Assembly: GCF_001921215.1 (NCBI RefSeq)
Contig: NZ_MSIF01000006.1
Location: 62,001-126,000 of the forward strand
DNA length: 64,000 nt
Source of the DNA: Actinophytocola xinjiangensis
GTDB lineage: Bacteria; Actinomycetota; Actinomycetes; Mycobacteriales; Pseudonocardiaceae
Direction of reading: 5' to 3'
The translations under genes and the position numbers were made by a program. The notes under the pieces are model-generated. The model was not told where the DNA came from, did not search any database, and saw only the letters and a list, made by a program, of their open reading frames with translations. This document shows positions 7,477 through 27,198 of this stretch, one piece after another; position 1 is the stretch's first letter; each line of letters opens with the position of its first letter.

Positions 7477-8970
7477 TCAGGCGTGCGCGGGGAACCCCAG
7501 GTCGATCCCGTGGTGGAGTGGCCAGCGGGCGGTGACGGCCTTCGCTCTGGTGTAGAAGTGGACGCCCTGCGTGCCGTGTGCGTGGGTGTCGCCGAACAAG
7601 GAGTCCTTCCAGCCGCCGAACGAGTAGTAGGCCATGGGCACCGGGATCGGCACGTTGATGCCGACCATGCCGACGTGTACGCGCCGCTGGTACTCGCGTG
7701 CGGCGAGGCCGTCGCCGGTGTAGACGGCGGTGCCGTTGCCGTACGGGTTGGCGTTCACCAGTGCGATCGCCTCGTCGAGGGTGTCGACTCTCAGGACGGA
7801 GAGCACCGGGCCGAATATCTCGTCCGTGTAGATCGACATTCCGGTGCGGACGTGGTCGAACACGGTGGGCCCCACCCAGAACCCGTCGTGGCCGGATACG
7901 GCGTGTCCTCGGCCATCGACGACCAGGGTCGCGCCCGCCGCTTCGCCCGCGTCCACGTAGGACACGACGCGGTCCCGTGCGGCGGCGGTGACCAGGGGGC
8001 CCATCTGTGCCATCGGGTCGGTGCCGGGCAGCGTGCGCAACGACCGGGCGCGCTCGGCGATCCCGGCCACGAGGTCGTCCGCGATGTCGCCGACCGCGAC
8101 CACGGCCGAGATCGCCATGCAGCGTTCGCCCGCGCTGCCGAAGCCCGCCGACACCGCGGCGTCGGCGGCCTGGTCGAGGTCGGCGTCCGGCAGGACGACC
8201 ATGTGGTTCTTCGCGCCGCCCAACGCCTGGACCCGCTTGCCCGCCGCCGTGCCGCGGGCGTACACCTGCCTGGCGATCGGTGTGGAGCCGACGAACGAGA
8301 CCGCGGTCACGTCGGGGTGGTCGAGCAGCGCGTGCACGGCGGCCGCGTCGCCGTGCAGGACATTGAGCACCCCGTCGGGCAGTCCCGCCGCCGTGAACAG
8401 CTCGGCGAGCCGCACCGGGGCGGACGGGTCGCGTTCGGAAGGCTTGAGCACGAAGGCGTTGCCACACGCGACCGCGATCGGGAACATCCACATCGGCACC
8501 ATGACGGGGAAGTTGAACGGCGTGACGCCCGCGACGACACCCAGCGGGTGCCGGACCGAATAGGCGTCCACACCGCGGGAGACCTGCTCGGAGTGCTCAC
8601 CCTTGAGCAGGTGCGGAATGCCGCAGGCGAACTCGACGACCTCCAGGCCACGCTGCACCTCACCCGCGGCGTCGTCGAGTACCTTGCCGTGTTCGGCCGT
8701 GATCAGCTCGGCCAGCTCACGCCGGTGTTCGTGGAGCAACTGCCGGTAGGCGAACAGGACCCTGGTCCGCTGCGACAACGACGACTCCGCCCACCCGGCC
8801 GCGGCCTTGCCCGCCGACGCGACCGCCAGGTCCACATCGGACTGTCCGGCAAGCACGACCTCCTTGTGGGCGACACCGGTCGCGGGGTCGAACACCGGGG
8901 CGGTGCGGCCGGCCGTGCCGGGGGTCCGCGCACCGTCGATGTAGTGCGGCACGAGCTGTGGTGAGTTCAC
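7477..8970 (-). CDS. iolA: Methylmalonate-semialdehyde dehydrogenase (CoA-acylating)
   Basis: A 497-residue aldehyde dehydrogenase of the MmsA/IolA type. It catalyses the last step of inositol catabolism, NAD- and CoA-dependent conversion of malonate semialdehyde to acetyl-CoA, and can also act on methylmalonate semialdehyde from valine. Visible are the family segments GVTPFNFPVMVPMWMFP and LKPSERDPSAP, the cofactor loop SFVGSTPIA, and the catalytic Cys in GSAGERCMAIS near residue 284; CoA-acylating members lack the Glu general base of other ALDHs. GTG start at 8970 with GAAGGGA upstream. It follows the LacI regulator on the same strand after 28 bases, so the two are probably one transcript running away from the iolG operon. 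Confidence 0.92.
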   Translation of the reverse strand: MNSPQLVPHYIDGARTPGTAGRTAPVFDPATGVAHKEVVLAGQSDVDLAVASAGKAAAGWAESSLSQRTRVLFAYRQLLHEHRRELAELITAEHGKVLDDAAGEVQRGLEVVEFACGIPHLLKGEHSEQVSRGVDAYSVRHPLGVVAGVTPFNFPVMVPMWMFPIAVACGNAFVLKPSERDPSAPVRLAELFTAAGLPDGVLNVLHGDAAAVHALLDHPDVTAVSFVGSTPIARQVYARGTAAGKRVQALGGAKNHMVVLPDADLDQAADAAVSAGFGSAGERCMAISAVVAVGDIADDLVAGIAERARSLRTLPGTDPMAQMGPLVTAAARDRVVSYVDAGEAAGATLVVDGRGHAVSGHDGFWVGPTVFDHVRTGMSIYTDEIFGPVLSVLRVDTLDEAIALVNANPYGNGTAVYTGDGLAAREYQRRVHVGMVGINVPIPVPMAYYSFGGWKDSLFGDTHAHGTQGVHFYTRAKAVTARWPLHHGIDLGFPAHA

Positions 8971-8998
8971 GAGAACGTCCCTTCAGGGAGCAGTGTGG

Positions 8999-10000
8999 TC
9001 ATGGCGGCGGTGGTGCCGTCGTCGCGCGGACGACGAGGGTCGACTGGAGCAGGTGCCGTACCGGCTCGTCGCGTTCGCCGCGCACGCGTTCGAGCAGCGC
9101 CGCGACGGCCAGCCTGCCGACCTCAGCGCGGGGCTGATCGATCGTGGTGAGGGAGACGTGCCCCATGGCGGCCAGCGAGGTGTTGTCGTAGCCGACCACC
9201 GACACGTCCCGCGGCACCCGCAGGCCGATCTCCTCGAGCGCGGAGATCGCGCCGATGGCGTTGAAGTCGTTGCCGGCCAGGACCGCCGTGGGCGGGAGAC
9301 CACCGGACTCGCCCCAGACCTGGCGCACCGCCTTGGCGCCTGCCACGTCGGTGTGCTCGCTTGCCACGACGCGCGGGTCGAGCCCGTGCCGTCGCATCGC
9401 GGCCGTGTACCCCTGCCTGCGCGCGGTCGCGACCGACGCCCTGCCCCCGTCGAAGTGCGCGATCCTGGTGTGCCCGAGGCGGACCAGGTGGTCGACCGCC
9501 AGCGCCGCGCCGGTCGCGCCGTCGTCGTTGACGGTGTCGACCGAGGACAGCCTCGTGGTCCGGGACACCAGCACCAGCGGGCCCTGCCCACTGGCCTCGG
9601 TGATCGCCGCCGCGGACAGCACCGGCGAGAGCAGCACGATCCCGGCTGGCCGGAACGACAGCAGGCTGCGCAACGCCACCCGTTCCCGAACGGGACTGCG
9701 GCCACCGGTGTTGATCACCATCTCGAAGCCGGCGACCCGTGCGGCCGCGTCGATGCCCTCCACGACGTCGACGAAGAACGCGTTGCGCAGGTCGGAGACC
9801 ATGACGCCGAGCACGGTGGACGTGCGGCTGGCCAGCGATCGGGCCATCTGGTGCGGCGTGTAGCCGAGTTCGGCGGCGGCCGCGAGCACCGCGTCGCGCC
9901 GGAGGCTGCTCACGTTCGACGAGCCGCGCATCACCAGCGAGACGAGTGCTCGGGACACCCCCGCCAACTCCGCCACGTCCGTCATCGTCGGCCGGGCCAT
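8999..10000 (-). CDS. LacI-family regulator of the inositol cluster
   Basis: A 333-residue LacI-type repressor: N-terminal HTH (TMTDVAELAGVSRALVSLV), hinge helix region ending in HQMARSLASRTS, then a periplasmic-binding-protein-like ligand domain. I chose ATG at 10000 rather than 10036 because AGGAGG sits 5 bases upstream and LacI proteins start close to the HTH. The divergent intergenic region holds two strong palindromes containing AGAGCGCTCT, typical CG-centred LacI operators, so it very probably controls iolG-iolD and its own operon with iolA. A related site at 17878-17890 suggests it also controls the phytase. The inducer is probably an inositol pathway intermediate, which is inference. 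Confidence 0.88.
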   Translation of the reverse strand: MARPTMTDVAELAGVSRALVSLVMRGSSNVSSLRRDAVLAAAAELGYTPHQMARSLASRTSTVLGVMVSDLRNAFFVDVVEGIDAAARVAGFEMVINTGGRSPVRERVALRSLLSFRPAGIVLLSPVLSAAAITEASGQGPLVLVSRTTRLSSVDTVNDDGATGAALAVDHLVRLGHTRIAHFDGGRASVATARRQGYTAAMRRHGLDPRVVASEHTDVAGAKAVRQVWGESGGLPPTAVLAGNDFNAIGAISALEEIGLRVPRDVSVVGYDNTSLAAMGHVSLTTIDQPRAEVGRLAVAALLERVRGERDEPVRHLLQSTLVVRATTAPPPP

Positions 10001-10013
10001 CCAAACCTCCTGC

Positions 10014-10041
10014 TTGACACCGTGGAAACCCACCATACATC
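10014..10041 (+). promoter_or_regulatory. Probable iolG promoter
   Basis: TTGACA at 10014-10019 is followed after 16 bases by TACATC (10036-10041), a reasonable -35/-10 pair for the housekeeping sigma factor. It points toward iolG, and the LacI palindromes start immediately downstream, where a bound repressor would block initiation. Confidence 0.5.
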
Positions 10042-10042
10042 G

Positions 10043-10072
10043 TTAGAGCGCTCTAAAGAATAGAGCGCTCTA
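10043..10072 (+). promoter_or_regulatory. Double LacI-type operator
   Basis: Two palindromes lie between the divergent LacI gene and iolG: TTAGAGCGCTCTAA at 10043-10056 (perfect, 14 bases) and TAGAGCGCTCTA at 10061-10072 (perfect, 12 bases). Their centres are 17 bases apart. The central CG and the size fit LacI-family operators. The pair overlaps the expected transcription start of iolG. Confidence 0.85.
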
Positions 10073-10100
10073 ATCCTTCTCCTGGACGGAGATCGAACTG

Positions 10101-11099
10101 ATGCGTATCGGAGTGGCGGGCGTCGGCCGGGTCGGCGCCATGCACGTCGCACACCTCGCCCGAATGTCCACAGTCGACGAACTGGTGCTGTTCGACCCGG
10201 CCCCCGGCCGCGCGGCGACGGCGGCCGGGGACATCGGCGCACGCGCCACCGCGGACCTCGACGCGCTGCTCGCCGCGTGTGACGGCGTGCTGATCGCGAC
10301 GCCGACGGCGACGCACCCGGAGGTGGTTCGCCGTGCGCTCGCCGCGGGCGTGCCCGCCCTGTGCGAGAAACCGATCGCACGCTCCTACGAGGAGATGCAC
10401 GCGCTCGTCAGGGACATCGACGCGGCGGGCGTCGAGGTCGTGGTCGGGTTCCAGCGCAGGTTCGACCCGGCGGTGGCGGAGTTGCACCGCCGTGTCCGGT
10501 CCGGCGAGGTGGGTACGGTCTACCTCGCGCGGTCGACGGGTCAGGACGCGGCGCCGCCGGACTTCGGCTACCTGCCAGTCTCCGGCGGCATCTTCCACGA
10601 CCTGTTGATCCACGACCTGGACGCGGTGCCGTGGCTGGTCGGCGAACCGGTGGTCGAGGTGTACGCGGCCGGTTCGGTGCTGGTGCACGAGGCGTTCGCC
10701 GCCGAGGACGACGTCGACAACTGCGTGGTGGCACTCACCTTCGCAGGCGGTGCGCACGCGCTGCTGTCCGGTGGCAGGCACAACGGCGCGGGCTACGACC
10801 ACCGGCTGGAGGTGTTCGGCAGCAGGGACTCGCTGGCGGTTGGCGTGGACGCACATACCCCGTTGCGTTCCCTCGAACCGGGCATGCCCGCGCCGACGGC
10901 GCCCTACCAGGGCTTCCCCGAGCGGTTCCGGCGAGCGTACGAGAACGAGATGGCCGTGTTCGTGGACGTGGTCGCCGGACGTGCGGCGAATCCCTCCCCC
11001 GCCAGGGAGAGCCTGGTGAGCCAGCGGCTCGCGGACGCCTGCGACGCGTCCCGCCGCAGCGGCGCACCTGTCCGCGTCACCGAGGCGGTGCCCGCATGA
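10101..11099 (+). CDS. iolG: Inositol 2-dehydrogenase (Gfo/Idh/MocA family)
   Basis: A 332-residue NAD-dependent oxidoreductase that oxidises myo-inositol to scyllo-inosose (2-keto-myo-inositol), the entry step of the pathway. The Rossmann start is IGVAGVGRVGAMH; the EKP motif (ALCEKPIARS) and the HDLLIHDLDAVPWL segment supply the Lys and the Asp/His pair expected in inositol dehydrogenases. ATG at 10101 with GGAG about 11 bases upstream, right after the double operator. It opens a tightly coupled operon: its stop overlaps the iolE start in ATGA, and the same coupling repeats for the next genes down to iolD. Substrate choice among inositol isomers cannot be read from sequence; the operon context supports inositol. 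Confidence 0.9.
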   Translation: MRIGVAGVGRVGAMHVAHLARMSTVDELVLFDPAPGRAATAAGDIGARATADLDALLAACDGVLIATPTATHPEVVRRALAAGVPALCEKPIARSYEEMHALVRDIDAAGVEVVVGFQRRFDPAVAELHRRVRSGEVGTVYLARSTGQDAAPPDFGYLPVSGGIFHDLLIHDLDAVPWLVGEPVVEVYAAGSVLVHEAFAAEDDVDNCVVALTFAGGAHALLSGGRHNGAGYDHRLEVFGSRDSLAVGVDAHTPLRSLEPGMPAPTAPYQGFPERFRRAYENEMAVFVDVVAGRAANPSPARESLVSQRLADACDASRRSGAPVRVTEAVPA

Positions 11100-11956
11100 T
11101 GCGCGTGGCTGCCGCACCGATTTCCTGGGGTGTGTGCGAGGTGCCCGGCTGGGGCCGGGTGCTCGACCCGGACACGGTGCTCGACGAGATGGCGCGGCTC
11201 GGCATCACGGCCACGGAACTGGGCCCGCCGGGCTATCTGCCGGGGTCACCGGAGGAGCTGGCCTCGGCGTTACGCGGGCACGGGCTCGGGCTGGTCGGCG
11301 GGTTTCTCGCGGTGCCGCTGCACACCGGCGACCCGCGGCATCTGGCCGAGGCCGACCGGGTTGCGGCGCTGCTCGCCCGAGCGGGCGGCGACGTCCTGGT
11401 CCTCGCCGCCGCGACAGGGCTCGACGGCTACGACGAGCGGCCGGACCTGACCGACGACGAGTGGCGCACGCTGGTCGGCACGGCAGCACGGATCACGAGC
11501 CGCGCCGAGGCACACGGTCTGCGCACAGTGCTGCACCCGCACGTCGGCACGCACGTCGAACGGGCGCACGAGGTCGAACGCTTCCTCGCCGACTCGCCGC
11601 TGCCGCTGTGCCTGGACACCGGGCATCTGCTGATCGGCGGCGCGGACCCGGTCGAGGTCGCGAGGCGGTGGGCCACGCGCGTCGGGCACGTGCACCTCAA
11701 GGACGTCCGGCACGACGTGGCCGCCAGGGTGCGTTCCGGCGAACTGGGCTACACCCAGGCCGTACGAGAGGGCGTCTACGTGCCGCTCGGGGACGGCGAC
11801 GTGGACATCGCCGCGATCATCGGGCACCTCGACGCCGCCGGTTACGACGGCTGGTACGTGCTCGAACAGGACATCGCGCTGTCCGAGGACAGCCCCGTCG
11901 ACGGACCGCGCGAGGACGTGGCACGTAGCCTCGCGCACCTCGGAGTCCGGCCATGA
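11096..11956 (+). CDS. iolE: Inosose dehydratase-type TIM barrel protein
   Basis: A 286-residue sugar phosphate isomerase/epimerase-type TIM barrel. The N-terminus APISWGVCEVPGWG is typical of IolE, which removes water from scyllo-inosose to give the trihydroxycyclohexane-dione substrate of IolD. Likely metal ligands are in VLHPHVGTHVE, LCLDTGHLLIGG and HVHLKDV, and a late Glu in VLEQDI. The ATG at 11096 overlaps the iolG stop (ATGA), so I reject the much longer upstream extension of the frame, which runs through iolG. The stop overlaps iolC in the same way. IolH and IolI are related barrels; the APISWGV start and the gene order favour IolE. Confidence 0.85.
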   Translation: MMRVAAAPISWGVCEVPGWGRVLDPDTVLDEMARLGITATELGPPGYLPGSPEELASALRGHGLGLVGGFLAVPLHTGDPRHLAEADRVAALLARAGGDVLVLAAATGLDGYDERPDLTDDEWRTLVGTAARITSRAEAHGLRTVLHPHVGTHVERAHEVERFLADSPLPLCLDTGHLLIGGADPVEVARRWATRVGHVHLKDVRHDVAARVRSGELGYTQAVREGVYVPLGDGDVDIAAIIGHLDAAGYDGWYVLEQDIALSEDSPVDGPREDVARSLAHLGVRP

Positions 11957-12882
11957 GCCTCGAACTGCTCACCGTCGGCCGGGTGGGAGTGGACCTGTAC
12001 CCGACCCGGAGCGGCGTGCCACTGTCCCAAGCGGACACCTTCGCCAGATCGCTCGGCGGCACCGCGACCAACGTCGCGGTCGCCGCGGCCCGGCTCGGCC
12101 ACCGCACCGCCGTGCTCACCAAGGTAGGTCCGGACGGCTTCGGTGGCTACGTGCGCGACGCGCTGACCGGGTTCGGCGTCGCGGCCGAGTACGTCGGCAC
12201 CGCGCAGGACCTGCTGACCCCCGTGGTGTTCTGCGCACTGGACCCGCCGGAGGACCCGCCGCTGCTGTTCTACCGCCTGCCCACCGCACCCGACCTCACC
12301 CTCATCGAGGACGACGTGCCGTGGGACGTGGTGCGCGACGTGCCCGCGTTGTGGGTGACCGGCACCGGCATGAGCGCGGAACCGGCGCGCGGCACCCAGC
12401 GGGCCGTGCTGGAACACCGCGCCCGGCGCGCCCACACCGTGCTGGACCTGGACTACCGGCCGATGTTCTGGCCGGACCAGGACACCGCCAGGGCCGAGTA
12501 CCGGTGGCTGCTCGACCACGTCGGCGTCGTCGTCGGCAACCGGGCCGAGGTGGCCGTGGCCACGGGCACCGACGACCCCGAGGAAGCCGCGAACCGGTTG
12601 CTGGCGCACGGGGTGGAACTCGCCGTCGTCAAGAAGGGCGCCGACGGCGTGCTCGTCGCCACCGTCGACGGGACGTGGACGGTGCCGCCGCACCCCGTCG
12701 ACGTGGTGTGCGGGCTCGGCGCGGGCGACGCGTTCGGCGGCGCACTCGTGCACGGTCTGCTGTCAGGGTGGCCACCGGAGACGACCGCCCGGTACGCCAA
12801 CGTCGCGGGCGCGCTGGTCGCCGGACGCCTGGCCTGCGCGGACGCGATGCCGACCACCGCCGAACTCGAGGAGGCACTGTGA
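11953..12882 (+). CDS. iolC: 5-dehydro-2-deoxygluconokinase (PfkB family)
   Basis: A 309-residue ribokinase-like sugar kinase. It phosphorylates 2-deoxy-5-keto-D-gluconate at O6. Near residues 35-50 is the glycine-rich signature SLGGTATNVAVAAARLG; near residue 255 is CGLGAGDAFGGALVHG, whose GAGD holds the catalytic Asp and the anion hole. The start LELLTVGRVGVDLYP is typical for IolC. ATG at 11953 overlaps the iolE stop, and the TGA overlaps the GTG start of the aldolase, so translation is coupled. Length is normal for a single-domain IolC; some proteobacterial homologues are fused to a DUF2090 domain, which is absent here because a separate aldolase gene follows. Confidence 0.9.
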   Translation: MSLELLTVGRVGVDLYPTRSGVPLSQADTFARSLGGTATNVAVAAARLGHRTAVLTKVGPDGFGGYVRDALTGFGVAAEYVGTAQDLLTPVVFCALDPPEDPPLLFYRLPTAPDLTLIEDDVPWDVVRDVPALWVTGTGMSAEPARGTQRAVLEHRARRAHTVLDLDYRPMFWPDQDTARAEYRWLLDHVGVVVGNRAEVAVATGTDDPEEAANRLLAHGVELAVVKKGADGVLVATVDGTWTVPPHPVDVVCGLGAGDAFGGALVHGLLSGWPPETTARYANVAGALVAGRLACADAMPTTAELEEAL

Positions 12883-13769
12883 TCACCGACGGGCAGTGGG
12901 CCGACCTGTTGCACACGAGGGCGACCGAGCCGGGCGCGATCCGCGCGGCGTACGCGTCCCGGCGGCGCCGCGAGCGCCTGCTGACGGACGCGGGCACGCT
13001 GTTCCTCGTCGCCGCGGACCACCCGGCGCGCGGTGCGCTCGCCGTCGGCGACCGCCCGCTGGCCATGGCGGGCAGGCGTGACCTGCTGGACCGGCTGCTC
13101 GTCGCGCTCGCGAACCCGCACGTCGACGGCGTGCTCGCCACCCCGGACGTGGTCGAGGACCTGTTGCTGCTGGACGCGTTGCACGGCAAGGTGGTCATCG
13201 GCTCGATGAACCGCGGCGGGCTCGCGGGCGCGGGCTGGGAGATCGACGACCGGTTCACCGCCTACGACACCGCCGCGATCGCGGAGTACCGGCTCGACGG
13301 CGGGAAGATGCTGCTGCGCATCGTCGACGACGACCCTGGCACGGTGCCCACCCTGCGGGCGTGCGCCGACGCAGTGTCCGCCCTGGCGGACCGCGGGTTG
13401 CCCGCGCTGGTCGAGCCGCTCCCCTACCGGCGCGTCGACGGCACGCTCGTGCTGGGCAAGGACGCGGCGTCGCTCGCGCGGGCGATCACCGTCGCCTCGG
13501 GACTCGGCCGGACCTCGGCGTACACGTGGCTGAAGCTCCCCGCGCCCGAGGACCTCGCCGTGCTGGACGCCACGACCCTGCCCTGCCTGGTACTGGGCGG
13601 CGTGCCGTCCGGTGACACCGCGGCGGACCTCGCCGCATGGGGCACCGCGCTCACCCACCCGGTCGTGCGCGGTCTCGTGGTCGGCCGGACCCTGCTCTAC
13701 CCGCCGGGCGACGATGTCGCGGCGGCCGTGGCCGCGGCGGCGGACTTGTTCACGGCGGCGCGGTCATGA
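12879..13769 (+). CDS. Cgl0158-type aldolase barrel, probable deoxy-phosphogluconate aldolase of the iol pathway
   Basis: A 296-residue (beta/alpha)8 protein resembling the Cgl0158/deoxyribose-phosphate-aldolase-like proteins found in actinobacterial iol clusters. Features: LFLVAADHPARGALAVG near the N-terminus, VVIGSMNRGGLAG, GGKMLLRIVDDD with a Lys suited to Schiff-base chemistry, and YTWLKLPAP. Its position between iolC and iolB suggests it splits 6-phospho-5-dehydro-2-deoxygluconate into DHAP and malonate semialdehyde, replacing the IolJ aldolase; that role is inference from context. GTG start at 12879 overlaps the iolC TGA (GTGA); its own stop overlaps iolB (ATGA). Confidence 0.75.
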   Translation: MITDGQWADLLHTRATEPGAIRAAYASRRRRERLLTDAGTLFLVAADHPARGALAVGDRPLAMAGRRDLLDRLLVALANPHVDGVLATPDVVEDLLLLDALHGKVVIGSMNRGGLAGAGWEIDDRFTAYDTAAIAEYRLDGGKMLLRIVDDDPGTVPTLRACADAVSALADRGLPALVEPLPYRRVDGTLVLGKDAASLARAITVASGLGRTSAYTWLKLPAPEDLAVLDATTLPCLVLGGVPSGDTAADLAAWGTALTHPVVRGLVVGRTLLYPPGDDVAAAVAAAADLFTAARS

Positions 13770-14632
13770 CCGCCCTGCACCACCCGCGGGGAACGCTCGC
13801 GGACGGCGACGACCCGGTACTGCTGACGCCGGACCACGCGGGCTGGACCTACACGGGTCTGCGAGTGCTCACGGTCGCGGCAGGCGGCACCCGGACCGTG
13901 CGCACCGGCGAGTTCGAGGCGTTCGTACTGCCGTTGCGTGGTGGGTGCACGGTCGCGGTGGACGGCGAGTCCTTCGCGTTGCGCGGGCGGGGGTCGGTGT
14001 TCACACGGGTGACCGACTTCGCTTACGTGCCACGGGATGCAGAGGTGACCGTGCACAGCTGGGAGGGCTGCGAGCTGGCGTTGCCGATGGCGCGCTGCAC
14101 CCGCAGGATGGCGCCGAGGTACGGGCCGGCGGAGGACGTGCCCGTCGAGGTGCGGGGCGCGGGCAACGCCACCCGGCAGGTCACCAACTTCGGCGTGCCG
14201 GGGGTGTGGGACCACGCCGACAAGCTCAACGCCTGCGAGCTGATCACCCCCGACGGCAACTGGTCCTCGTACCCGCCGCACAAGCACGACGAGGCAAGCG
14301 AGTGCGAGGTCGTCAACGAGGAGATCTACTACTTCCGGATCGCGGGCCGTGACGGCTTCGGCCTGCACCGGACCTACACCGCAGACGGGGCCATCGACGT
14401 GGACACCGCGGTGCGGGACGGCGACGTCTTCCTGATACCGCGCGGGTTCCACGGTCCGTGCGTCGCCGCGCCCGGCTACCCGATGTACTACCTGAACGTG
14501 CTCGCCGGCCCGGGCCCCGAGCGGTCCATGGCGTTCTGCGACGACCCCGCGCACAGCTGGGTCCGCGACACCTGGGCAGGCCAGGAACAGGACCCGCGCT
14601 GCCCGGTCACCACCGCGGAAGGACGGACATGA
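13766..14632 (+). CDS. iolB: 5-deoxy-glucuronate isomerase
   Basis: A 288-residue double-cupin isomerase (KduI/IolB family). It converts 5-deoxyglucuronate to 2-deoxy-5-keto-gluconate. The metal site is visible in SSYPPHKHDEASECEVVNEE (two His and a Glu), followed by IYYFRI. A later GFHGPCVAAPGYPMYYLNV supplies another His and the family-typical tail. ATG at 13766 lies in the ATGA overlap with the aldolase; a start further upstream would run through that gene and is rejected. The stop overlaps iolD. Length matches the family. Confidence 0.92.
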   Translation: MTALHHPRGTLADGDDPVLLTPDHAGWTYTGLRVLTVAAGGTRTVRTGEFEAFVLPLRGGCTVAVDGESFALRGRGSVFTRVTDFAYVPRDAEVTVHSWEGCELALPMARCTRRMAPRYGPAEDVPVEVRGAGNATRQVTNFGVPGVWDHADKLNACELITPDGNWSSYPPHKHDEASECEVVNEEIYYFRIAGRDGFGLHRTYTADGAIDVDTAVRDGDVFLIPRGFHGPCVAAPGYPMYYLNVLAGPGPERSMAFCDDPAHSWVRDTWAGQEQDPRCPVTTAEGRT

Positions 14633-17872: not shown

Positions 17873-17877
17873 GACAG

Positions 17878-18770: not shown

Positions 18771-19409
18771 TCAGTGGCCCCGTTTCTGCATCGCGTCGGA
18801 CAACGTCGCCGCGCTTTCGGCGAGCCGCAGGCCGACGATGTCCAGGCGTCTGAGCAGTTCGCGACGCTTGAGCATCTCGCTGGACAGCTCCCCGTCGAAC
18901 AACGCGGCGACCGAGTTCTGATAGTGCTGTCGTACGCGGGCGGCGCACTTGCGTGCCGCCAGAACACTGTCGATCACCGCGCCGGGCGCGGGGATGAGCT
19001 GGTCCATTCCCCGGCGCAGATGGGTGAGCCCGTCGGCGACGGCGAGCACGGCCTCGGTGTCGGCCGGGTCGGGCGTCGCCTGGTAGAGGTCGTTCTCCCG
19101 CACGAAGTCGCGCACGTTGTCGAGCACGTCGTCGACCGACCGGGACAGCCGGTAGAGGTCCTCGCGGTCGATCGGCGTGGTCAGCGCCGAGGAGATCTCC
19201 GAGATCAGGCGCACCCGCAGCGCGTCACCGGCGTGCTCGGCCTCGACCATGCCCGCGCGGGCCTGTGCGGGCGCCAACTCACCCGCCGTCATCCGCGCCG
19301 CGAGCCGGACGCCGTGCACCGTCGCGTCCAGCTGTTCGGCCAGCACCTCGACCGCACGCCGCTGCGCCCGCCCGGTCAGGTCGGCGAACATCCGCCGCAC
19401 TCCCGTCAC
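18771..19409 (-). CDS. DUF47 PhoU-like partner of Pit
   Basis: A 212-residue all-helical protein of the DUF47/PhoU-like group. Characteristic segments are AEHAGDALRVRLISEISSAL near residues 65-85, ALTTPIDREDLYRLSRSVDDVLDNVRDF and a C-terminal RRELLRRLDIVGLRLAESAATL. These proteins are encoded with Pit-type phosphate transporters and are thought to modulate them. GTG at 19409 overlaps the pit stop (GTGA), confirming cotranscription and translational coupling. The open frame extends much further upstream through pit, but that part is only the other frame of pit. It is cytoplasmic, with no membrane helices. Confidence 0.85.
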   Translation of the reverse strand: MTGVRRMFADLTGRAQRRAVEVLAEQLDATVHGVRLAARMTAGELAPAQARAGMVEAEHAGDALRVRLISEISSALTTPIDREDLYRLSRSVDDVLDNVRDFVRENDLYQATPDPADTEAVLAVADGLTHLRRGMDQLIPAPGAVIDSVLAARKCAARVRQHYQNSVAALFDGELSSEMLKRRELLRRLDIVGLRLAESAATLSDAMQKRGH

Positions 19410-20428
19410 GCCACGCCGTTCCACAGCATCACCCCTTCCAGACCGAGCCCCACGAGGAACCCGGCGCCGAAACCCGCGGGCAGCGTGACCACCCACGCGA
19501 CGAACATCGGCACGCTGAACTGCCAGCGAACGCGCGTGCGGCCCTGTGTCAGCGCCGCACCGACCAGGCCGCCCGCGGTGGACTGCGTCATGCTCACTGG
19601 CATCCCGAACATGCTCGAACCCAGCACGGCGACCGAGGAGGCCACCTCGGCGGACACCACGTGCCACGGCCGGGCGGCCACCAGCGCGGTGGTGGCGCCG
19701 CGGCCGATCCGGCGCAGGCTCACGACCGAACCCACGGTGAACACGACCCCGATCGCGAGCGAGATCCATCCGATCGGCACCGCAGCCGCGTACCCGAGCG
19801 CGGTGGTCGTCGCGGTCATGGCGACCGCCACGACCGCGAACATCTTCTGACCGTCGTTGGCCGCGTAGGCCAGGCACTGTCCGGTGAACGCGAGCACCTG
19901 CGCCACCCGCACCCGCGCGGGCATCGACGCGGTGCCGGGTATCCGGCGTGCGGCGAGGCCGAGCAGGTACCCGACGAGCACCCCGCAGAACGGCGCGGCG
20001 ACCCCGACGGCCAGCACGACCGCGAGCTGGCGCCACGCGGGTGTCGCACCGAGTCCCAGTGCCGCACCGGACAGCGCCCCGAGCAACGCCAGGGTGATGC
20101 TGGTCGGGATGCCCCGTGCGGTCAGGTGCAGCACGAGTCCGGTCGCCGCGCCCACTCCCGCCAGGAACACCAGGTCAGCGTGTCCCTCCGGGTCGGCGAA
20201 CAGCCGGTCGGTGAACGTCCTCGCGACCGCGAGACCGAACAGCATCGGCGCGGCGGCCACAGCGGCCCCGAGCACCAGGAGCACCGCGACGCGCGCCCTG
20301 GCACGGTGCGCGACGGCGACGACGAGCAGCGCGCCGCCGTCGTTGGCCCCGCACAGGAACACGAACGCGGTGGCAACGCAGAGCAGGCTCACCGGCAGCA
20401 ACACCAGACCACCCGCCTTCCGTCGCAT
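19406..20428 (-). CDS. pit: PiT-family inorganic phosphate transporter
   Basis: A 340-residue integral membrane protein with around ten hydrophobic helices and the two PiT half-signatures: FLCGANDGGALL near residue 25 and CLAYAANDGQKMFAV in the second half. PiT proteins are low-affinity phosphate carriers driven by the proton gradient and move metal-phosphate complexes. ATG at 20428 with CCTGACATAT upstream on the coding strand. It is the first gene of the leftward set pit-DUF47-gntR-phytase. Its place beside a secreted phytase suggests it takes up the phosphate that enzyme releases. Length is short for the family but both halves are complete. Confidence 0.88.
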   Translation of the reverse strand: MRRKAGGLVLLPVSLLCVATAFVFLCGANDGGALLVVAVAHRARARVAVLLVLGAAVAAAPMLFGLAVARTFTDRLFADPEGHADLVFLAGVGAATGLVLHLTARGIPTSITLALLGALSGAALGLGATPAWRQLAVVLAVGVAAPFCGVLVGYLLGLAARRIPGTASMPARVRVAQVLAFTGQCLAYAANDGQKMFAVVAVAMTATTTALGYAAAVPIGWISLAIGVVFTVGSVVSLRRIGRGATTALVAARPWHVVSAEVASSVAVLGSSMFGMPVSMTQSTAGGLVGAALTQGRTRVRWQFSVPMFVAWVVTLPAGFGAGFLVGLGLEGVMLWNGVA

Positions 20429-20532
20429 ATGTCAGGACAAAGTATGTCAGAGGGAAGTTCTACCAGCACAGTCGCTCCAGAGGAAGCCCCCGATCTCCAC
20501 TTTCACGACAGTATGTCTTGACATATGCGACG
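20421..20532. promoter_or_regulatory. Divergent pit/ABC control region with inverted TATGTC elements
   Basis: A perfect 13-base inverted repeat frames the region: CGTCGCATATGTC at 20421-20433, including the pit start codon, and its complement GACATATGCGACG at 20520-20532. Inside are a second TATGTC at 20444-20449 and a compact palindrome TATGTCTTGACATA at 20512-20525. The half-site TATGTC thus occurs four times in about 100 bases between two divergent operons. A GntR-type dimer is the obvious candidate, since gntR lies in the same leftward set. Assignment of the protein is inference. Confidence 0.6.
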
Positions 20533-20636: not shown

Positions 20637-21821
20637 ATGCCCAGGTCGTCCATCCCGGTCCACAGAAGGTGGTTGACCGCGTTCGCCGGGCTCGCGCTCG
20701 CGGTCGCGGCGTGCGCGCCGGGCCCCGCCGAGACAGGCGCCGGAGCCGAGAGCGCCGCGCTGCCCGCACCGGTCATCGACCGCGACATCGACCTCGACAA
20801 GTTGGTCGCCGCGGCCAAGAAGGAAGGGTCGGTGACCGTCTACGACTCCTCCGGCGACATCGTGGAGGTGGCCAAGGCGTTCACCGACAAGTACGGGATC
20901 CCGGCGACGGGCGTGAAATCCGACGTCGGCGAGACCCAGGAGAAGCTGACCCGCGAATACCAGTCCGGCAACACCACCATCGACATGGCGCTCTACGAGA
21001 GTGGTCCGTCCCTGGTCGGCGAACTGCTCCCGCAGAAGGTCGTCTACACCTACCTCCCCGGCGACCTGATCGATGACGTCCCCGACGCGAACCGCAATCC
21101 GCTGACCGTGTTGTCGAAGGCGATGGTGTGGGTCTACAACCCCTCGGTCTTCCCGGAAGGCTGCCCGGTCGACAACATCTGGGACGTCACCACGCCGGAG
21201 TGGAGCGGCAAGACGCTCATGCAGGACCCGCTGGGCAAGCCGTACCTCATCGAGTGGTTCAACCAGATGGCGAGCGGCTACGACAAGCAGTTGCGTGCGG
21301 AGTACGAGGAGAACTTCGGCAAGCCGCTGGACACCTCCGCCGAGTCCGCCGCCCACGAGTGGGTGGCCGGGTTCGCCGGGAACAGCCCCGTGCTCACCAG
21401 CGCCGACGACGACGTCTCCGCCGCGGTCGCCGCACCCAACCAGACCGAGCCACGGCTGGGCTTCCTGTCCATCGCGAAGTTCCGCGACGTGAAGAACAAG
21501 GGCTACAAGATGGCGGTCTGCGACGACATGGCGCCGTTCGTCGGCTTCCAGTACCCCAAGTTCGGGGCGATCGCGACCCGCGCGGCACACCCCAACGCCG
21601 CCAAGCTCTTCATGCACTTCGTGCTGACCGAGGAAGGCATCTCCCCCGAGATGCACGCGGGCGGCATCTCCGGCAACTCGGCGGTGCCCGTGTCGAAGAA
21701 CAACCCCCCGGGGCTCGACGACTGGGACGCGCAGCTCGTGTCGTTCGACCGCACCGAGTTGCTGAGCGACTTCCGCAACATCGAGCCGATGCAGGACCAC
21801 TGGCGGCTGAGCAAGGGCTGA
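20637..21821 (+). CDS. ABC importer substrate-binding lipoprotein (Fe3+/hexose-phosphate-like family)
   Basis: A 394-residue extracellular solute-binding protein. ATG at 20637 is chosen because AGGAGG lies 5 bases upstream and the product then starts with a lipoprotein signal (RRWLTAFAGLALAVAAC, Cys as anchor). The mature protein begins IDLDKLVAAAKKEGSVTVYD, typical of the FbpA/AfuA/2-aminoethylphosphonate cluster of binding proteins, with GKTLMQDPLGKPYLIEW in the middle. AfuA-type members bind sugar phosphates rather than iron. The operon encodes permease, ATPase and three putative phosphatases and sits beside a phytase and inositol genes. An inositol phosphate or sugar phosphate is therefore a better guess than iron. 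The substrate is not readable from sequence alone. Confidence 0.8.
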   Translation: MPRSSIPVHRRWLTAFAGLALAVAACAPGPAETGAGAESAALPAPVIDRDIDLDKLVAAAKKEGSVTVYDSSGDIVEVAKAFTDKYGIPATGVKSDVGETQEKLTREYQSGNTTIDMALYESGPSLVGELLPQKVVYTYLPGDLIDDVPDANRNPLTVLSKAMVWVYNPSVFPEGCPVDNIWDVTTPEWSGKTLMQDPLGKPYLIEWFNQMASGYDKQLRAEYEENFGKPLDTSAESAAHEWVAGFAGNSPVLTSADDDVSAAVAAPNQTEPRLGFLSIAKFRDVKNKGYKMAVCDDMAPFVGFQYPKFGAIATRAAHPNAAKLFMHFVLTEEGISPEMHAGGISGNSAVPVSKNNPPGLDDWDAQLVSFDRTELLSDFRNIEPMQDHWRLSKG

Positions 21822-21851: not shown

Positions 21852-23708
21852 ATGACCCGGACACTCCGCGGCACCGAGGTGGATCCGCCTCCTGAGAAAC
21901 CACCCGCACGCACCGGGCGCGGGGCGCGACTGCGCTACCGGCTCGGTGTCGCCCGGCGCGAACCGACGCTGTTCCTCGGCATCGGACTCGTGCTCGTGTT
22001 GCTGTACCTGGTGATCGCCCCACTGGTGTCGATCATCTCGGACGGTTTCGCCGTCCACTTCGGCGACGACTTCAAGGCAGGGCAACCGGTGGGCGCGCTC
22101 ACCGGCTACTACCTGTGGCGGGTCTTCCGCTCGCCGGTGAGCACCGAGTTGTTCTGGCAGCCACTGGTCAACACACTCATCGTCGCGGTCGGCGTGACGG
22201 CCGTGGCGCTCGTGCTCGGTGGCTTCGCGGCGTTCCTGCTGACCCGAACGGACGTCAAGGGGCGCAAGGCACTCGCGAACGCGTTGGTCGTGCCGTACAT
22301 GCTGCCGTCGTGGACGTTCGCGCTGGCCTGGCTCGCGTTGTTCAAGAACGGGCGATCCGGCGGCCAGGTCGGGCTGCTGCAGGCGTGGGGTGTCAACACC
22401 CCGGACTGGCTGGCCTACGGCGCGGTACCGATCGTCATCTGCCTGGGGTTGCACTACTTCCCGTTCGTCCTGTTGTTGTTCGGCAACGCACTGCGCAGAC
22501 TGGACGCGCAACTGGAGGACTCGGCGCGCATCCTCGGCGCGTCCCGGGGAACCGTGCTGCGCAGGATCACACTGCCGCTGATGTTGCCGTCGCTGTCGTC
22601 GTCGACGCTGCTCGTGTTCGGGCGCATCCTCGGCACGTTCGGCACGCCCTACATCCTCGGCCTGCCGGTCGACTTCAACCTGCTGTCCACCTCCCTGTTC
22701 TCCGCCGTGCGCAGCGGGCAGCAGGGCGTCACGGCGGTCCTCGCCACCGTGATCGTGATGATCGGCGTCGCGATGGTCCTGTTCGACGCCCGGTTGGTGC
22801 GCCAGACCCGCAGGTTCGTCACCGTCGGCGCGAAGGGCGCGATGGAACGCACCATCGCGCTCGGCCGCTGGGCCGGGCTCGCCGCCACCGGCGCGTGGAC
22901 GCTGTTCGCGCTCTCGGTCGTGGTGCCGGTGGCGACGCTCGCCCTGACGACGGTCACCATCACACCCGGGGTGTTCAGCGCGGACAACTTCACCCTCGCG
23001 TTCTGGACCGCCGAACACCTCCCCGGCGCACCCGGCTTCCCGCACGGGGTCCTGCGCGGCACCGAACTGTGGTCGGCGGCGTGGAACAGCGTGCGTATCG
23101 TCGGCATGGCCGCGCTGATCTGCGGCCTCGCGGGGTTGTTGATCGGCTACGTCGTGGTGCGGGCCGACCGGTCCCCGATCGCGAAAGTGCTGCGGCAGGT
23201 CAGCTTCCTGCCGTACCTGGTGCCGGGCATCGCGTTCGCGGCGGCGTTCCTGTCGCTGTTCGCCGTGCAGCGCGGGCCGATCCCCGCCCTGTACGGATCG
23301 ATCGCCCTGCTCGTGGTGACACTGGCGGTGACGCACCTGCCGTACTCGTCCCGGTCCGGGATCAGTGCCATGACCCAGCTCGGCCGGGAACCGGAAGAGG
23401 CCGCGCAGATGGCGGGCGCGCGGTGGCTGACCCGCATCCGGCGTGTCGTCGTGCCGATCCAGCGCGGGCCGCTGATCACCGGGATCGTCCTGCCCTTCGT
23501 GTCGGGCATCAAGGAACTGAGCATCGTCATCATGCTCACCACCGGCGGCACCCAGCTGCTCACCACGTTGTCGATCAACCTGGTCGACTACGCCTACGCG
23601 CAGATGGCCAACGCCGTGATCCTCATCATCGCGGTGCTCAGCTTCACCATCACCTACCTGACCCAGCGGCTCACCCGGACCAGCCTCGCGTCCGGCCTCG
23701 GAGGTTGA
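21852..23708 (+). CDS. ABC importer permease with two fused membrane domains
   Basis: A 618-residue membrane protein with about twelve helices arranged as two halves. Each half has an EAA coupling loop: EDSARILGASRGTVLRRITL near residue 225 and EEAAQMAGARWLTRIRRVVV near residue 515. Such fused permeases belong to the FbpB/AfuB/aminoethylphosphonate group, so no second permease gene is needed. ATG at 21852 lies 30 bases after the binding-protein stop, and the ATPase follows after 7 bases. The N-terminal 30 residues are cytoplasmic and rich in Pro/Arg. Confidence 0.88.
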   Translation: MTRTLRGTEVDPPPEKPPARTGRGARLRYRLGVARREPTLFLGIGLVLVLLYLVIAPLVSIISDGFAVHFGDDFKAGQPVGALTGYYLWRVFRSPVSTELFWQPLVNTLIVAVGVTAVALVLGGFAAFLLTRTDVKGRKALANALVVPYMLPSWTFALAWLALFKNGRSGGQVGLLQAWGVNTPDWLAYGAVPIVICLGLHYFPFVLLLFGNALRRLDAQLEDSARILGASRGTVLRRITLPLMLPSLSSSTLLVFGRILGTFGTPYILGLPVDFNLLSTSLFSAVRSGQQGVTAVLATVIVMIGVAMVLFDARLVRQTRRFVTVGAKGAMERTIALGRWAGLAATGAWTLFALSVVVPVATLALTTVTITPGVFSADNFTLAFWTAEHLPGAPGFPHGVLRGTELWSAAWNSVRIVGMAALICGLAGLLIGYVVVRADRSPIAKVLRQVSFLPYLVPGIAFAAAFLSLFAVQRGPIPALYGSIALLVVTLAVTHLPYSSRSGISAMTQLGREPEEAAQMAGARWLTRIRRVVVPIQRGPLITGIVLPFVSGIKELSIVIMLTTGGTQLLTTLSINLVDYAYAQMANAVILIIAVLSFTITYLTQRLTRTSLASGLGG

Positions 23709-23715: not shown

Positions 23716-24825
23716 ATGGCATCCACGGCACCCACCATCTCGCTCAAGGGCGTCACCAAGAGCTACGGCACCGGACCACTCGCCGTGGACAACCTCGACC
23801 TCGTCATGCCCGCCCGGTCGTTCACGTGCCTGCTCGGCCCGTCCGGCTGCGGCAAGACGACGACGCTGCGGATGATCGCCGGGCTGGAGAACCTCACTGA
23901 CGGCACCATCACCATCGGCGACCGGATCGTGGACTCGGTGCCGGACGGGGTGTTCGTGCCGCCCGAGAAACGCGGCATGGGCCTGGTGTTCCAGAACTAC
24001 GCGCTGTGGCCGCACCTCACGGTCCGCGCCAACGTCGAGTTCGGACTCCGGATCCGCAAGGTGGCCGCGGCGGAACGCAGGAAGGTGGTCGACGACGCGC
24101 TCGCGACGATGCAGATCGGCTGGGCCGCCGACCGGTACCCGTCGCAGTTGTCCGGCGGGCAGCAGCAACGCGTTTCGCTGGCCAGGATGCTCGCCGTCAA
24201 ACCCGAGGTGCTGCTCCTCGACGAACCACTGTCCAATCTGGACGCACGGCTGCGGCTGGAGATGCGGGCGGAGCTCAAACGGCTGCACGAGGAGACCGGC
24301 CACACCGTCGTCTTCGTGACGCACGACCAACTGGAGGCGATGACCATGGCCACGCACGTGGCGGTCATGAAAGACGGTGTGCTGCAACAACTCGCGGCGC
24401 CACTGGAGGTGTACCACCGACCCGCCAACACGTTCGTCGCGGAATTCGTCGGCAGTCCGCCCATGAACCTGATCGACACGACGACCGCGATCGGTGCACA
24501 GGCGTGCGCATACCTGCGGCCGGCCGGTGATGTCGCGACCGTCGGCGTCCGGCCGGAACACGTCCGCGTTGTCACCGGACCGGCGCCGGACGACGCGTTC
24601 ACGTTCGACGCGACCGTAAAGGCGGTACTGCCGACCGGCTCGTCCTGGACGGTGTCGGTGCTCACCGGTGACACCGAGATCTACCTGGTGTCGACCGAAC
24701 CAGTCGCGGCACGCGGCGGGGAGACACTGCGCTGTGCCGTCGCGGCGGGCAGCCTGCACACCTTCGGCAAGGACGGCGCGCGGCTCGCCGGGGACAACGC
24801 CATGGAGACCGAATGGGCGCGCTGA
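23716..24825 (+). CDS. ABC importer ATP-binding protein
   Basis: A 369-residue ATPase of the MalK/FbpC/PotA class. Walker A LGPSGCGKTTTLRMIAGLE is near residue 42, the Q-loop region GLVFQNYALWPHLTV near residue 92, signature LSGGQQQRVSLARML near residue 145, Walker B and D-loop VLLLDEPLSNLDA near residue 165, and the switch His in VVFVTHDQLEAM. A TOBE-like domain follows (residues 270-365, with VRPEHVRVV). ATG at 23716 after a 7-base gap. Its last 13 bases overlap the start of the HAD gene, so the phosphatases are translated with the importer. Confidence 0.9.
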   Translation: MASTAPTISLKGVTKSYGTGPLAVDNLDLVMPARSFTCLLGPSGCGKTTTLRMIAGLENLTDGTITIGDRIVDSVPDGVFVPPEKRGMGLVFQNYALWPHLTVRANVEFGLRIRKVAAAERRKVVDDALATMQIGWAADRYPSQLSGGQQQRVSLARMLAVKPEVLLLDEPLSNLDARLRLEMRAELKRLHEETGHTVVFVTHDQLEAMTMATHVAVMKDGVLQQLAAPLEVYHRPANTFVAEFVGSPPMNLIDTTTAIGAQACAYLRPAGDVATVGVRPEHVRVVTGPAPDDAFTFDATVKAVLPTGSSWTVSVLTGDTEIYLVSTEPVAARGGETLRCAVAAGSLHTFGKDGARLAGDNAMETEWAR

Positions 24826-25595
24826 CCCCGCCGCGCGCGCTGCTGCTCGACTTCGGCGGCGTCGTCGTGACCACGACCGGGAAGCCCGACTGGCCGGACC
24901 GGCTCGCGCTCGAGATCACCGCGCGCCTGAACCTGGTCCCCGGCAACGAACTGTCGACCACCCAGGTCGCGACCGACATCCGCAACGGCGCCGAGGCCGA
25001 CGCACGCTGGAAGGACGCGATGTCCCGGCCCGCCGAGCCGAGGGAGCTGACACACCGCGAGTTCTGGGCCGACTTCGTGGCCGCGGACTGGCCTGCCTCG
25101 GCGCGTGCATGGGTCACCGCGGAGGCCACGGCGCTGTGCCGGCGGATGGGCGAACTGCGCCAGCACCGGGAGTTCCGCCCCGGCCTCGTGTCGCTGCTCG
25201 ACGCCGCCCACCAGCGCGACGTGCCCGTCGGCGTGGTCAGCAACGCGCTCAGCGGCACGGTGCACCGCGACCACATCGACCGGGGTGGGCTCGGCGACCG
25301 CTTCGCCGTGCAGGTCTACAGCGACGAAGTCGGCATCCGCAAACCCAACCCGCGCATCATCGACCTGGCCGCGACGGCGCTCGGCGTGCCGACGAGCGCC
25401 GTCTGGTACGTCGGCGACAACTACGACCGCGACGTGTTGTGCGCACGGCGCGCGGGTGCGGGCGCGGCGATCCTGATCGAGGACAAGAGCACGTTCTGTC
25501 CGCCGTACCCGCCGCAAGTGGCACCCGACGCACAACTGCCAAACCTGACCGAGCTGTGCCGCCTGCTCGCCGACGCCTGCGGAGGACGACCGTGA
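24813..25595 (+). CDS. HAD-superfamily hydrolase, subfamily IA-like
   Basis: A 260-residue haloacid-dehalogenase-fold protein. Motif I is LLLDFGGVVV: the nucleophile Asp is present but the usual Asp two residues on is Gly, a variant seen in some HAD-IA groups. Motif II is VGVVSNALSG, motif III the Lys in VGIRKPNPR, motif IV VWYVGDNYDRD. A helical cap lies between motifs I and II. Start ATG at 24813 inside the last codons of the ABC ATPase; its stop overlaps the next gene (GTGA). Being locked to an importer suggests it acts on the imported compound, perhaps a phosphate ester; the motif I change makes ordinary phosphatase action less certain. Confidence 0.75.
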   Translation: MGALTPPRALLLDFGGVVVTTTGKPDWPDRLALEITARLNLVPGNELSTTQVATDIRNGAEADARWKDAMSRPAEPRELTHREFWADFVAADWPASARAWVTAEATALCRRMGELRQHREFRPGLVSLLDAAHQRDVPVGVVSNALSGTVHRDHIDRGGLGDRFAVQVYSDEVGIRKPNPRIIDLAATALGVPTSAVWYVGDNYDRDVLCARRAGAGAAILIEDKSTFCPPYPPQVAPDAQLPNLTELCRLLADACGGRP

Positions 25596-26404
25596 CCGAA
25601 CTCGACGATCTCGCACGCCGCCTGGCCGACGTCGGGGTCGCGGCCGCCACCGCGGTGGCGGAACCGTTGCGCGAAGCGTTCCGCACGGGCGTCACCGTGG
25701 ACTACAAGCGCGACCACCACGACCCGGTGACCGTCCACGACAGACGGGCCGAGGAACAGATCCGCGAACACCTGACCACCGCGGTGCCGGACAGCGTCGT
25801 CGTCGGTGAGGAGACCGGCGCGTCGGGCGCGGGGCGGGTCCGCTGGTATGTCGACCCGATCGACGGCACCGCGAACTTCGCCGCCGGACTCGCGTTCTTC
25901 TGCACGTCGATCGGCGCGGTCGTCGACGACGTGATCGTCGCGGGCGCGATCGTCGACCCCGTCGGCGGCACCGTGTTCCGCGCCGACACCACCTCGTCGA
26001 CGTGTAACGGCCAACCGTTGCGCGCGGCCGGGGTCACCGACGAGGAACGCGCGTTGCTGATCACCGGCTACCCGAACGCCCGCGACATCGCCCGCGACGG
26101 CGAGCAGGGACTCGCGCGCTATGCCGAGCTGGTGACGAGCTTCGCCACGGTGCGCAGACCCGGCAGTTCGGCCCTTTCGATCGCGCACGTGGCCGCGGGC
26201 TGGGCCGACGCCGCGCTCGGCACTTCCGTAAGCGCATGGGACATCTGCGCCGCACAGCTCATCCTCACCGGGGCCGGTGGCGTGTACGTCCCGTTCGGCG
26301 GGGACGGCGGCTGGGACCAGCCGGCCTACCTCGCGCACAGCCGAGACCTGAAGCCGATGGCGCTAAGCCGTTTCGTCGAGCGGCACCAGGGCGGTACCGC
26401 GTGA
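25592..26404 (+). CDS. Inositol-monophosphatase-family enzyme
   Basis: A 270-residue magnesium-dependent phosphatase of the IMPase/SuhB/CysQ family. The metal-site motifs are complete: VVVGEETGA (Glu of motif A), WYVDPIDGTANFAAG (DPIDGT) and SAWDICAAQLI (WD near the C-terminus). It hydrolyses a phosphomonoester in the cytoplasm; the family includes inositol monophosphatases, sugar bisphosphatases and PAP phosphatases. GTG at 25592 overlaps the preceding stop. Its place between two HAD genes behind an ABC importer, next to a complete inositol pathway, makes inositol phosphate the most economical substrate. That is inference. Confidence 0.88.
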   Translation: MTELDDLARRLADVGVAAATAVAEPLREAFRTGVTVDYKRDHHDPVTVHDRRAEEQIREHLTTAVPDSVVVGEETGASGAGRVRWYVDPIDGTANFAAGLAFFCTSIGAVVDDVIVAGAIVDPVGGTVFRADTTSSTCNGQPLRAAGVTDEERALLITGYPNARDIARDGEQGLARYAELVTSFATVRRPGSSALSIAHVAAGWADAALGTSVSAWDICAAQLILTGAGGVYVPFGGDGGWDQPAYLAHSRDLKPMALSRFVERHQGGTA

Positions 26405-27198
26405 CCGGCTCGGCGTTCGACTGGCTGGTCACCGATCTCGACGGGACGCTGGTCGACCGGCAGATGCGCATCGTGCCGCGCAACGCCAGGGCGCTGGCCA
26501 GGTTCCGCGAGGCGGGAGGCACGGTGGTGATCGCGACCGGCCGCAACGAGGAGTCCGCGGGCCGTTACCACGCCGAACTCGGCCTTGACACGCCGATGAT
26601 CCTCTACAACGGCGCCCGCGTCGTCGCCCCGGCCACCGGCGAACGCCTGCTCGACCTGGACCTGGGCGACACGTGGCCGTTGCTCGCCGGGTCGGTGATC
26701 CCGGCGCTGCCCGCCGGCGTCGGTGCCGTCGGGTTCAGCGGCCACGCGGCCTACGTGCTGCGCGACGCCCCAGCACTGGTGGACTACGCACGCCGCGACG
26801 GCATCGCACTGTCCGACGCACCCGTGTCGGGCCCGGTCACCAAGATCATGTTGATCACACCGACCCCGGGGATGGACAGCCTGACCGACCTGGTCCGGGT
26901 CCAGGCCCCGGACGTTCGGCTACTGCAGTCGGAGAGCACCTACCTCGAGGTGCTGCCACGGCACGCTGGCAAGGGCGCCGCGCTGCGCTTTCTGGCCGCA
27001 CGCAACGGGATTCCCCTGCACCGCGTGGCCGCCATCGGTGACAACCCGAACGACCTCGACATGCTCCTGGCCGCGGGCCTCGGCGCCGCCGTCGGCGACG
27101 GCCACCCGTCGGTCCGCGACAGTGCGGACATGGTCATGTCCCCCTGCGCGGACGGCGCGGTCGCGGACCTGGTCGACCACATGCTCGCCGGCACGTGA
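26401..27198 (+). CDS. HAD-superfamily phosphatase, Cof/IIB type
   Basis: A 265-residue HAD-IIB protein. Motif I is VTDLDGTLV with both Asp residues, motif II VVIATGRNEES, the Lys of motif III in GKGAALRFLAARNG, and motif IV AAIGDNPNDLDMLLAAG. The C2 cap between motifs II and III is typical of Cof-type sugar-phosphate phosphatases. GTG at 26401 overlaps the IMPase stop, so it is the last gene of the importer operon. Immediately after its stop the recombinase relic begins. Likely role: cytoplasmic removal of phosphate from the imported compound, complementing the IMPase-family enzyme. Confidence 0.85.
   Translation: MTGSAFDWLVTDLDGTLVDRQMRIVPRNARALARFREAGGTVVIATGRNEESAGRYHAELGLDTPMILYNGARVVAPATGERLLDLDLGDTWPLLAGSVIPALPAGVGAVGFSGHAAYVLRDAPALVDYARRDGIALSDAPVSGPVTKIMLITPTPGMDSLTDLVRVQAPDVRLLQSESTYLEVLPRHAGKGAALRFLAARNGIPLHRVAAIGDNPNDLDMLLAAGLGAAVGDGHPSVRDSADMVMSPCADGAVADLVDHMLAGT

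Follow-up and report, generated by a model that had tools for sequence, protein, structure and literature searches.

A conserved phytate and inositol gene island in Actinophytocola xinjiangensis with a candidate inositol-phosphate importer

Phytate is the main phosphorus store of plants and a major store of organic phosphorus, which beta-propeller phytases probably digest only in part. A GntR-type repressor of myo-inositol catabolism, SCO6974, has reportedly been described in Streptomyces coelicolor. Clusters of inositol catabolic (iol) genes occur in 48% of Actinobacteria species, according to the available part of a survey (PMC9430895), and the accessible text on AfuABC (PMC4546632) presents a hexose-phosphate importer that was once mistaken for an iron importer. 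Here, we analyze a 64,000-nucleotide stretch from the genome of the soil actinomycete Actinophytocola xinjiangensis (hereafter the window; positions 62,001 to 126,000 of contig NZ_MSIF01000006.1, our C56, in a 9.5 Mb assembly of 72 contigs), in which an island of 18 genes at 7477-27198 places an iol set next to a phytase, a phosphate carrier and an ABC importer. Like the surveyed clusters, the island holds the complete iol gene set; the available part of the survey names no linked phytase or importer, and the term 'abc transporter' has 0 occurrences in it (PMC9430895).

The data are compatible with a phytate-use system built from two linked modules, a model to which we assign a probability of roughly 0.6. 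Outside the cell, a beta-propeller phytase would strip phosphates from phytate and stop at lower inositol phosphates, typically InsP3. A lipoprotein-dependent ABC importer would then take up these lower inositol phosphates, HAD, IMPase and Cof-HAD phosphatases would remove the remaining phosphates inside the cell, and the free inositol would feed the iol pathway. A Pit-DUF47 pair would balance phosphate, possibly releasing a surplus, with a LacI repressor governing the iol operon and the phytase and a GntR repressor governing the divergent importer/pit promoter. The cargo of the importer, the order of dephosphorylation, the direction of Pit transport, the pairing of regulators with sites and the inducers are the steps that we infer. 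Phosphate export by Pit is a guess, albeit a plausible one because the carbon source itself would bring phosphate.

The gene content, the conserved clustering, two operators and phosphatases lacking a visible signal sequence can be read directly from the DNA. Profile searches assigned all parts that an earlier note on this DNA had named within the island, namely a full iol pathway, a secreted-looking phytase, Pit-DUF47, an importer, two HAD proteins and an IMPase. In the left module, iolA (7477..8970; methylmalonate-semialdehyde dehydrogenase, TIGR01722 at 721 bits, over the cut-off of 448.5) and a LacI-family regulator adjoining iolG (8999..10036; PF00356, PF13377) lie on the minus strand. 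The plus strand carries, with overlapping ends, an iolG-like inositol dehydrogenase (10101..11099; PF01408 and PF22725 of the GFO/IDH/MocA type), iolE (11096..11956; PF01261, 97.8 bits), the PfkB kinase iolC (11953..12882; PF00294), a Cgl0159-like aldolase with a presumed iolJ role (12879..13769; PF22649, 370 bits), iolB (13766..14632; PF04962, 269.8 bits) and iolD (14629..16470; TIGR04377 at 822 bits, over the cut-off). All of iolG, E, D, B, C, the J-role aldolase and A are present, with the specificity of iolG unsettled at 277.7 bits against TIGR04380, below the equivalog cut-off of 355. Where iolD and the phytase gene converge, a perfect hairpin formed by an inverted repeat (16489..16514) may serve as a two-way terminator.

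The right module starts on the minus strand with the phytase (16529..17872), a GntR/UTRA regulator that is missing from the text of the earlier note (17946..18686; PF07702, PF00392), the PhoU-like DUF47 partner of Pit (18771..19409; PF01865 at 33.5 bits, cut-off 24.4) and the Pit-type phosphate carrier (19406..20428), a divergent family member (PF01384 at 102.7 bits, versus 284.8 for a second genomic copy). Divergent from Pit, the plus strand encodes an ABC substrate-binding lipoprotein (SBP; 20637..21821, open frame from 20586; PF13416, with a lipobox), a fused two-domain permease (21852..23708; PF00528 in two stretches), an ATPase with a TOBE domain (23716..24825; PF00005, PF08402), a HAD-IA phosphatase-like protein (24813..25595; PF00702, 64.7 bits), an IMPase-family phosphatase (25592..26404; PF00459, 172.8 bits; GEE, DPIDGTANF and WD motifs) and a Cof-type HAD phosphatase (26401..27198; PF08282, 140.5 bits; DLDGT and GDNPND motifs). 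For the SBP, the probable start is 20637, preceded by AGGAGG and followed by the lipobox, and not 20586. Judged by eye, as were the lipobox and the signal-like starts, the N-termini of all three phosphatases show no visible signal sequence. Neither MFS nor any other sugar-permease family was matched among the 18 island proteins, in line with the statement in the earlier note that no conventional inositol permease is seen there.

The phytase has a signal-like N-terminus and matches PF02333 at 166.5 bits (cut-off 21). It holds the motifs DDPxxW and NNxD at residues 62 and 116, presumably the metal-site motifs of beta-propeller phytases, and its best PDB match is the 3-phytase 3amr (E 2.4e-39). 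Its frame is open to TTG 17890, and the start is probably ATG 17872 or 17854, because TTG 17890 falls within an operator. Such an enzyme is expected to act on phytate and to stop at InsP3, as stated in the available part of a published account (PMC5773496). In a tree of 26 rows, among them 17 island rows including that of the window (L012 was lost to the length filter and L024 has no phytase), it is nearest to the Amycolatopsis jejuensis phytase. Six of eight stand-alone actinomycete beta-propeller phytases (L109-L116) are 45-50% identical to the island enzyme, yet none of the eight has this importer alongside.

Conservation was assessed on relatives picked by the SBP alone. A species-genome collection was scanned with a 12-row SBP alignment; of the 202 relatives confirmed, the best 80 were kept, giving 78 distinct loci (L010-L087) with flanks fetched up to 10 kb on each side, although some loci end at a contig edge. 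The SBP is rare near home: among other genomes, 2 of 248 in the order and 1 of 395 in a phylum sample have a match at E<=1e-20, with about 30% identity. The 18 closest loci (L010-L027) are all from actinomycetes (Amycolatopsis, Streptomyces, Micromonospora, Actinomadura, Microbispora, Streptosporangium, Nonomuraea and Microtetraspora) and their SBPs reach 48-76% identity over the best segment. Seventeen of these 18 loci have a phytase within 10 kb, the exception (L024) being a 6.5 kb contig, compared with any phytase at all in 10 of the 395 other genomes of the phylum sample; the co-occurrence check proposed in the earlier note thus does not refute its reading. At 8 of those 10 background phytase loci that were examined, no SBP or permease lies alongside, and some show weak LacI or ATPase-like matches.

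At thresholds of 80 bits (60 for DUF47), the other neighbors at the 18 closest loci are DUF47 (15), the permease (15), Pit (14), GntR (13) and the ATPase (10), followed by HAD (9), IMPase (9) and Cof-HAD (8). At least one of iolG/E/C/J/B/D is found in 14 loci, and iolA and LacI in 1 each. Some misses fall past contig or flank ends; HAD is found in all 18 genomes, in several just beyond the fetched edge, and the four genomes without nearby iol genes all have IolB elsewhere. Gene order varies between genera, yet the set recurs, which argues for selection on the gene set.

The island also contains two types of candidate operator. The palindrome TTAGAGCGCTCTAA occurs, at <=3 mismatches, at three sites in the 64 kb window: twice before iolG (10043..10056, 0 mismatches; 10060..10073, 1 mismatch) and once before the phytase (17877..17890, 2 mismatches). 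Shuffled controls give a mean of 0.27 sites and reach three in 1 of 100 cases, which confirms the claim of the earlier note that iolG and the phytase share an operator. The site recurs in two relatives: the phytase of A. jejuensis (L010) is preceded by the same 14 letters as that of the window, and in Actinomadura nitritigenes (L013) a tandem LacI-type pair lies ahead of a phytase-lacI pair; the LacI-type palindrome is absent from the other 16 of the 18 closest loci. In the whole genome, eight LacI-type palindromes are found at <=2 mismatches versus three for a control pattern, and one of them immediately precedes another iolG copy and adjoins a further lacI gene, which shares 66% identity with the island lacI. 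Two more, at positions 4400 and 4472 of L124 (contig C6 of the same genome), are 72 bases apart with no island homologue near them.

In the 18 closest loci (342 kb), 43 sites match the GntR-type core TGTCNNGACA, against 4.25 expected and a maximum of 7 in 20 simulations. By comparison, there are 11 occurrences in the 60 more distant loci (15-21 in five simulations) and 1 in the eight stand-alone phytase loci. Forty-two of the 43 sites, in 17 of 18 loci, are close to the start of a gene belonging to the cluster, with distances that are rough as frames were taken from stop to stop; they lie near the SBP in 16 of 18 loci, with others before phytase, iolG, gntR or pit and none in L024. In the window, the count itself is unremarkable (3 matches versus 1.29 expected). 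However, a matrix built from the 18 closest loci with the window left out gives its two highest scores in the whole window to the sites in the pit/SBP promoter (20512..20525, score 28.0, which includes TTGACA as a possible -35 box; 20428..20441, score 23.7). The same independent matrix finds weak sites before the phytase (17889..17910, 6.5 bits, rank 4) and before gntR (18746..18767, 5.2 bits, rank 6), and no GntR-type operator before iolG of the window (rank 388). Across the genome, the GntR-type 14-mer at <=2 mismatches is not enriched (6 versus 5 for a control), with the pit/SBP sites as its best matches. The company of genes suggests that the GntR regulator binds the TGTCNNGACA operator, and it is likely that LacI controls iol and phytase and that GntR controls the importer and pit. 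The likeness of this regulator to SCO6974 from S. coelicolor lies in the GntR family and the link to inositol genes, by description only.

The island is not the only iol pathway of this genome. A second set on other contigs comprises lacI, iolG, iolE, a Peripla_BP_4 SBP, a BPD_transp_2 permease, an ABC_tran ATPase and iolD (L123:4376-12092, contig C72), with iolC, J and B on contig C3 (L107). The Peripla_BP_4/BPD_transp_2 layout is familiar for free inositol; the island has no transporter of this type and instead adjoins a phosphoester-like importer. The structure model of the island SBP (pLDDT 86.2) shares its fold with proteins that bind ferric iron, metal citrate or sugar phosphates. Its family profile (A3) ranks glucose 6-phosphate (G6P) binders first, albeit with modest scores: VcA0625 (8x1a) at 46.1 bits and AfuA (4r72) at 38.4, with the next match at 35.5. 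The basic residues K111, R123, K298 and R300 are conserved without exception across 33 SBPs. AfuABC resembles the island importer in the broad binding-protein fold and ABC type, and AfuA stands at the top of the profile matches; in contrast to AfuABC, the island importer keeps company with phytase, IMPase and iol genes (PMC4546632, available part). The alignment does not support a shared ligand, as two of the AfuA ligand residues given there (His205 and Asp206) lie outside the aligned stretches and the third (Glu229) lies in a low-scoring one. The structure of the vitamin B6 phosphate importer P5PA (6wce; PMC8427247, seen in part) is also among the Foldseek matches, but no link to vitamin B6 genes was seen at the island.

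Of the 60 distant loci (L028-L087), six belong to actinomycetes, and the rest are from Rhizobiaceae, Devosia, Aminobacter, Marinomonas, Vreelandella and other bacteria. Here, neighbors were searched with annotated proteins as queries at 50 bits, which yielded IMPase at 58 loci, LacI at 56, a DSP-like phosphatase at 51, a metallophosphoesterase at 40, a Na/Pi-PhoU carrier at 27, HAD at 17, iolD at 4 and phytase at 1. Since the 9.5 Mb genome holds five IMPase genes, the IMPase linkage is not background, although the loci are related to one another. SBP matches occur on 158 plasmid records and are common on Rhizobiaceae plasmids; four inspected records, including Sinorhizobium meliloti pSymB, share the layout, and the plasmid relatives often carry two or three SBPs per permease. 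Some permeases of importer relatives (L006-L009, L028-L087) are annotated as iron transport. At L048, L061, L070 (Marinomonas), L078 (Microbacterium), the importer adjoins several iol genes without a beta-propeller phytase.

Taken together, the importer probably carries lower, partly dephosphorylated inositol phosphates rather than inositol, because the phosphatases look cytoplasmic, IMPase is kept at 58 of 60 distant loci, the family profile matches G6P binders best and a separate iol operon elsewhere in the genome comes with an ABC importer of the ordinary sugar type. Several points weigh against the proposed system. Both the single-sequence search and Foldseek rank ferric and metal-citrate binders first for the SBP, and enzymes of the IMPase and HAD families accept many different phosphoesters. 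The 18 closest loci are mostly one family and not independent, so binomial figures, which assume independence, carry no weight here. The island consists of two modules, and in the nearest relative (L010, A. jejuensis) they are apart, with no iol gene within 10 kb. Six more actinomycete loci (L036, L043, L052, L056, L060 and L078; SBP 38-46% identical) lack a nearby phytase, so that 17 of all 24 actinomycete loci in the set of 78 have one close by; a nearby beta-propeller phytase is also missing from most of the importer loci of proteobacteria. Finally, a dedicated phytase lineage is not supported, as the island phytases do not form one clade and their 17 rows need four label changes.

Other explanations can be set against these data. 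It is unlikely that the importer carries a different phosphoester or phosphonate (hexose phosphate, glycerophosphoinositol or 2-aminoethylphosphonate) and that the proximity of the phytase reflects general phosphorus scavenging. The nearest solved relatives bind G6P, and permease, ATPase and GntR match the 2-aminoethylphosphonate models PhnU2 and PhnT2 and the PhnF model, but all three scores (151.4, 306.5 and 129.7 bits) are under the curated NCBIfam cut-offs (593.25, 457.7 and 156.8); moreover, no phosphonate enzyme was matched among the island proteins by profile search, and iol genes and phytase share one operator in relatives. Somewhat less likely still is the reading implied by the earlier note, in which phytase and other secreted phosphatases would strip phytate fully outside the cell, leaving free inositol for the importer. 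The presence of iol genes near the importer at 14 of the 18 closest loci and the lack of another matched permease family in the island fit this idea; three phosphatases without visible signal sequence in the importer operon, an SBP of the ferric/phosphoester rather than the usual sugar type, the existing iol operon with its sugar-type importer, and IMPase at 58 but iolD at only 4 of 60 distant loci speak against it.

Phytate chelates iron, and a further candidate cargo is ferric iron, perhaps in complex with phytate or with its products, which would make the cluster an iron-phytate system. The single-sequence and fold searches and the iron annotation of some relatives point this way, but the profile search puts G6P binders on top and phosphatases are linked at the distant loci. 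Furthermore, the tyrosine stretch of the iron binder 1xvx, whose tyrosine pair we take to be an iron-binding feature of FbpA-type proteins, aligns, if weakly (i-Evalue 1), with an SBP stretch that lacks the pair and holds the invariant Lys298 and Arg300. AfuABC was likewise once taken for an iron importer (PMC4546632, available part). On balance, we consider iron as cargo improbable. Very improbable indeed is the idea that an iol operon came to lie beside unrelated phosphorus genes by chance: the two modules are separable, iol is not adjacent in L010 and iol clusters are common (48% of species; PMC9430895, available part), but linkage and operators recur across genera in differing gene orders.

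The dedicated phytate-use system suggested in the earlier note is supported as far as clustering and operators go, with two revisions: inositol phosphates are a likelier cargo of the importer than inositol, and Pit may release phosphate rather than harvest it. A bolder proposal, which we offer tentatively and at a little under even odds, is that these transporters constitute the first recognized bacterial inositol (poly)phosphate importer family, extending from actinomycetes to rhizobia including S. meliloti pSymB. In actinomycetes, InsP3 would be handed off by the phytase to the importer, three cytoplasmic phosphatases would remove its three phosphates, and Pit-DUF47 (Na/Pi-PhoU in many rhizobia) would vent the surplus.

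Two further observations concern the window outside the island. To its left, at 2001-6000, G+C drops to 53-56%, possibly marking a mobile or foreign stretch, and an open reading frame therein (3007-4425) encodes Schlafen AlbA_2 and RecG-like C-terminal domains. A P-type cation ATPase at 54426-56748 is apparently split, with an N-terminal part at 55648-56748 (Pfam) and a stretch resembling the C-terminal part at 54426-55082 (by eye).

Each gene family of the island is already known; the new part would be the conserved, co-regulated combination together with the proposed inositol-phosphate importer. No such cluster or importer was described in the titles and abstract openings of the open-licence literature searched, and a description elsewhere is possible. 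If true, the model would account for the use of both the phosphate and the carbon of phytate by some soil bacteria, and it would provide a testable function for an ABC importer family that is partly annotated as iron transport and common on Rhizobiaceae plasmids.

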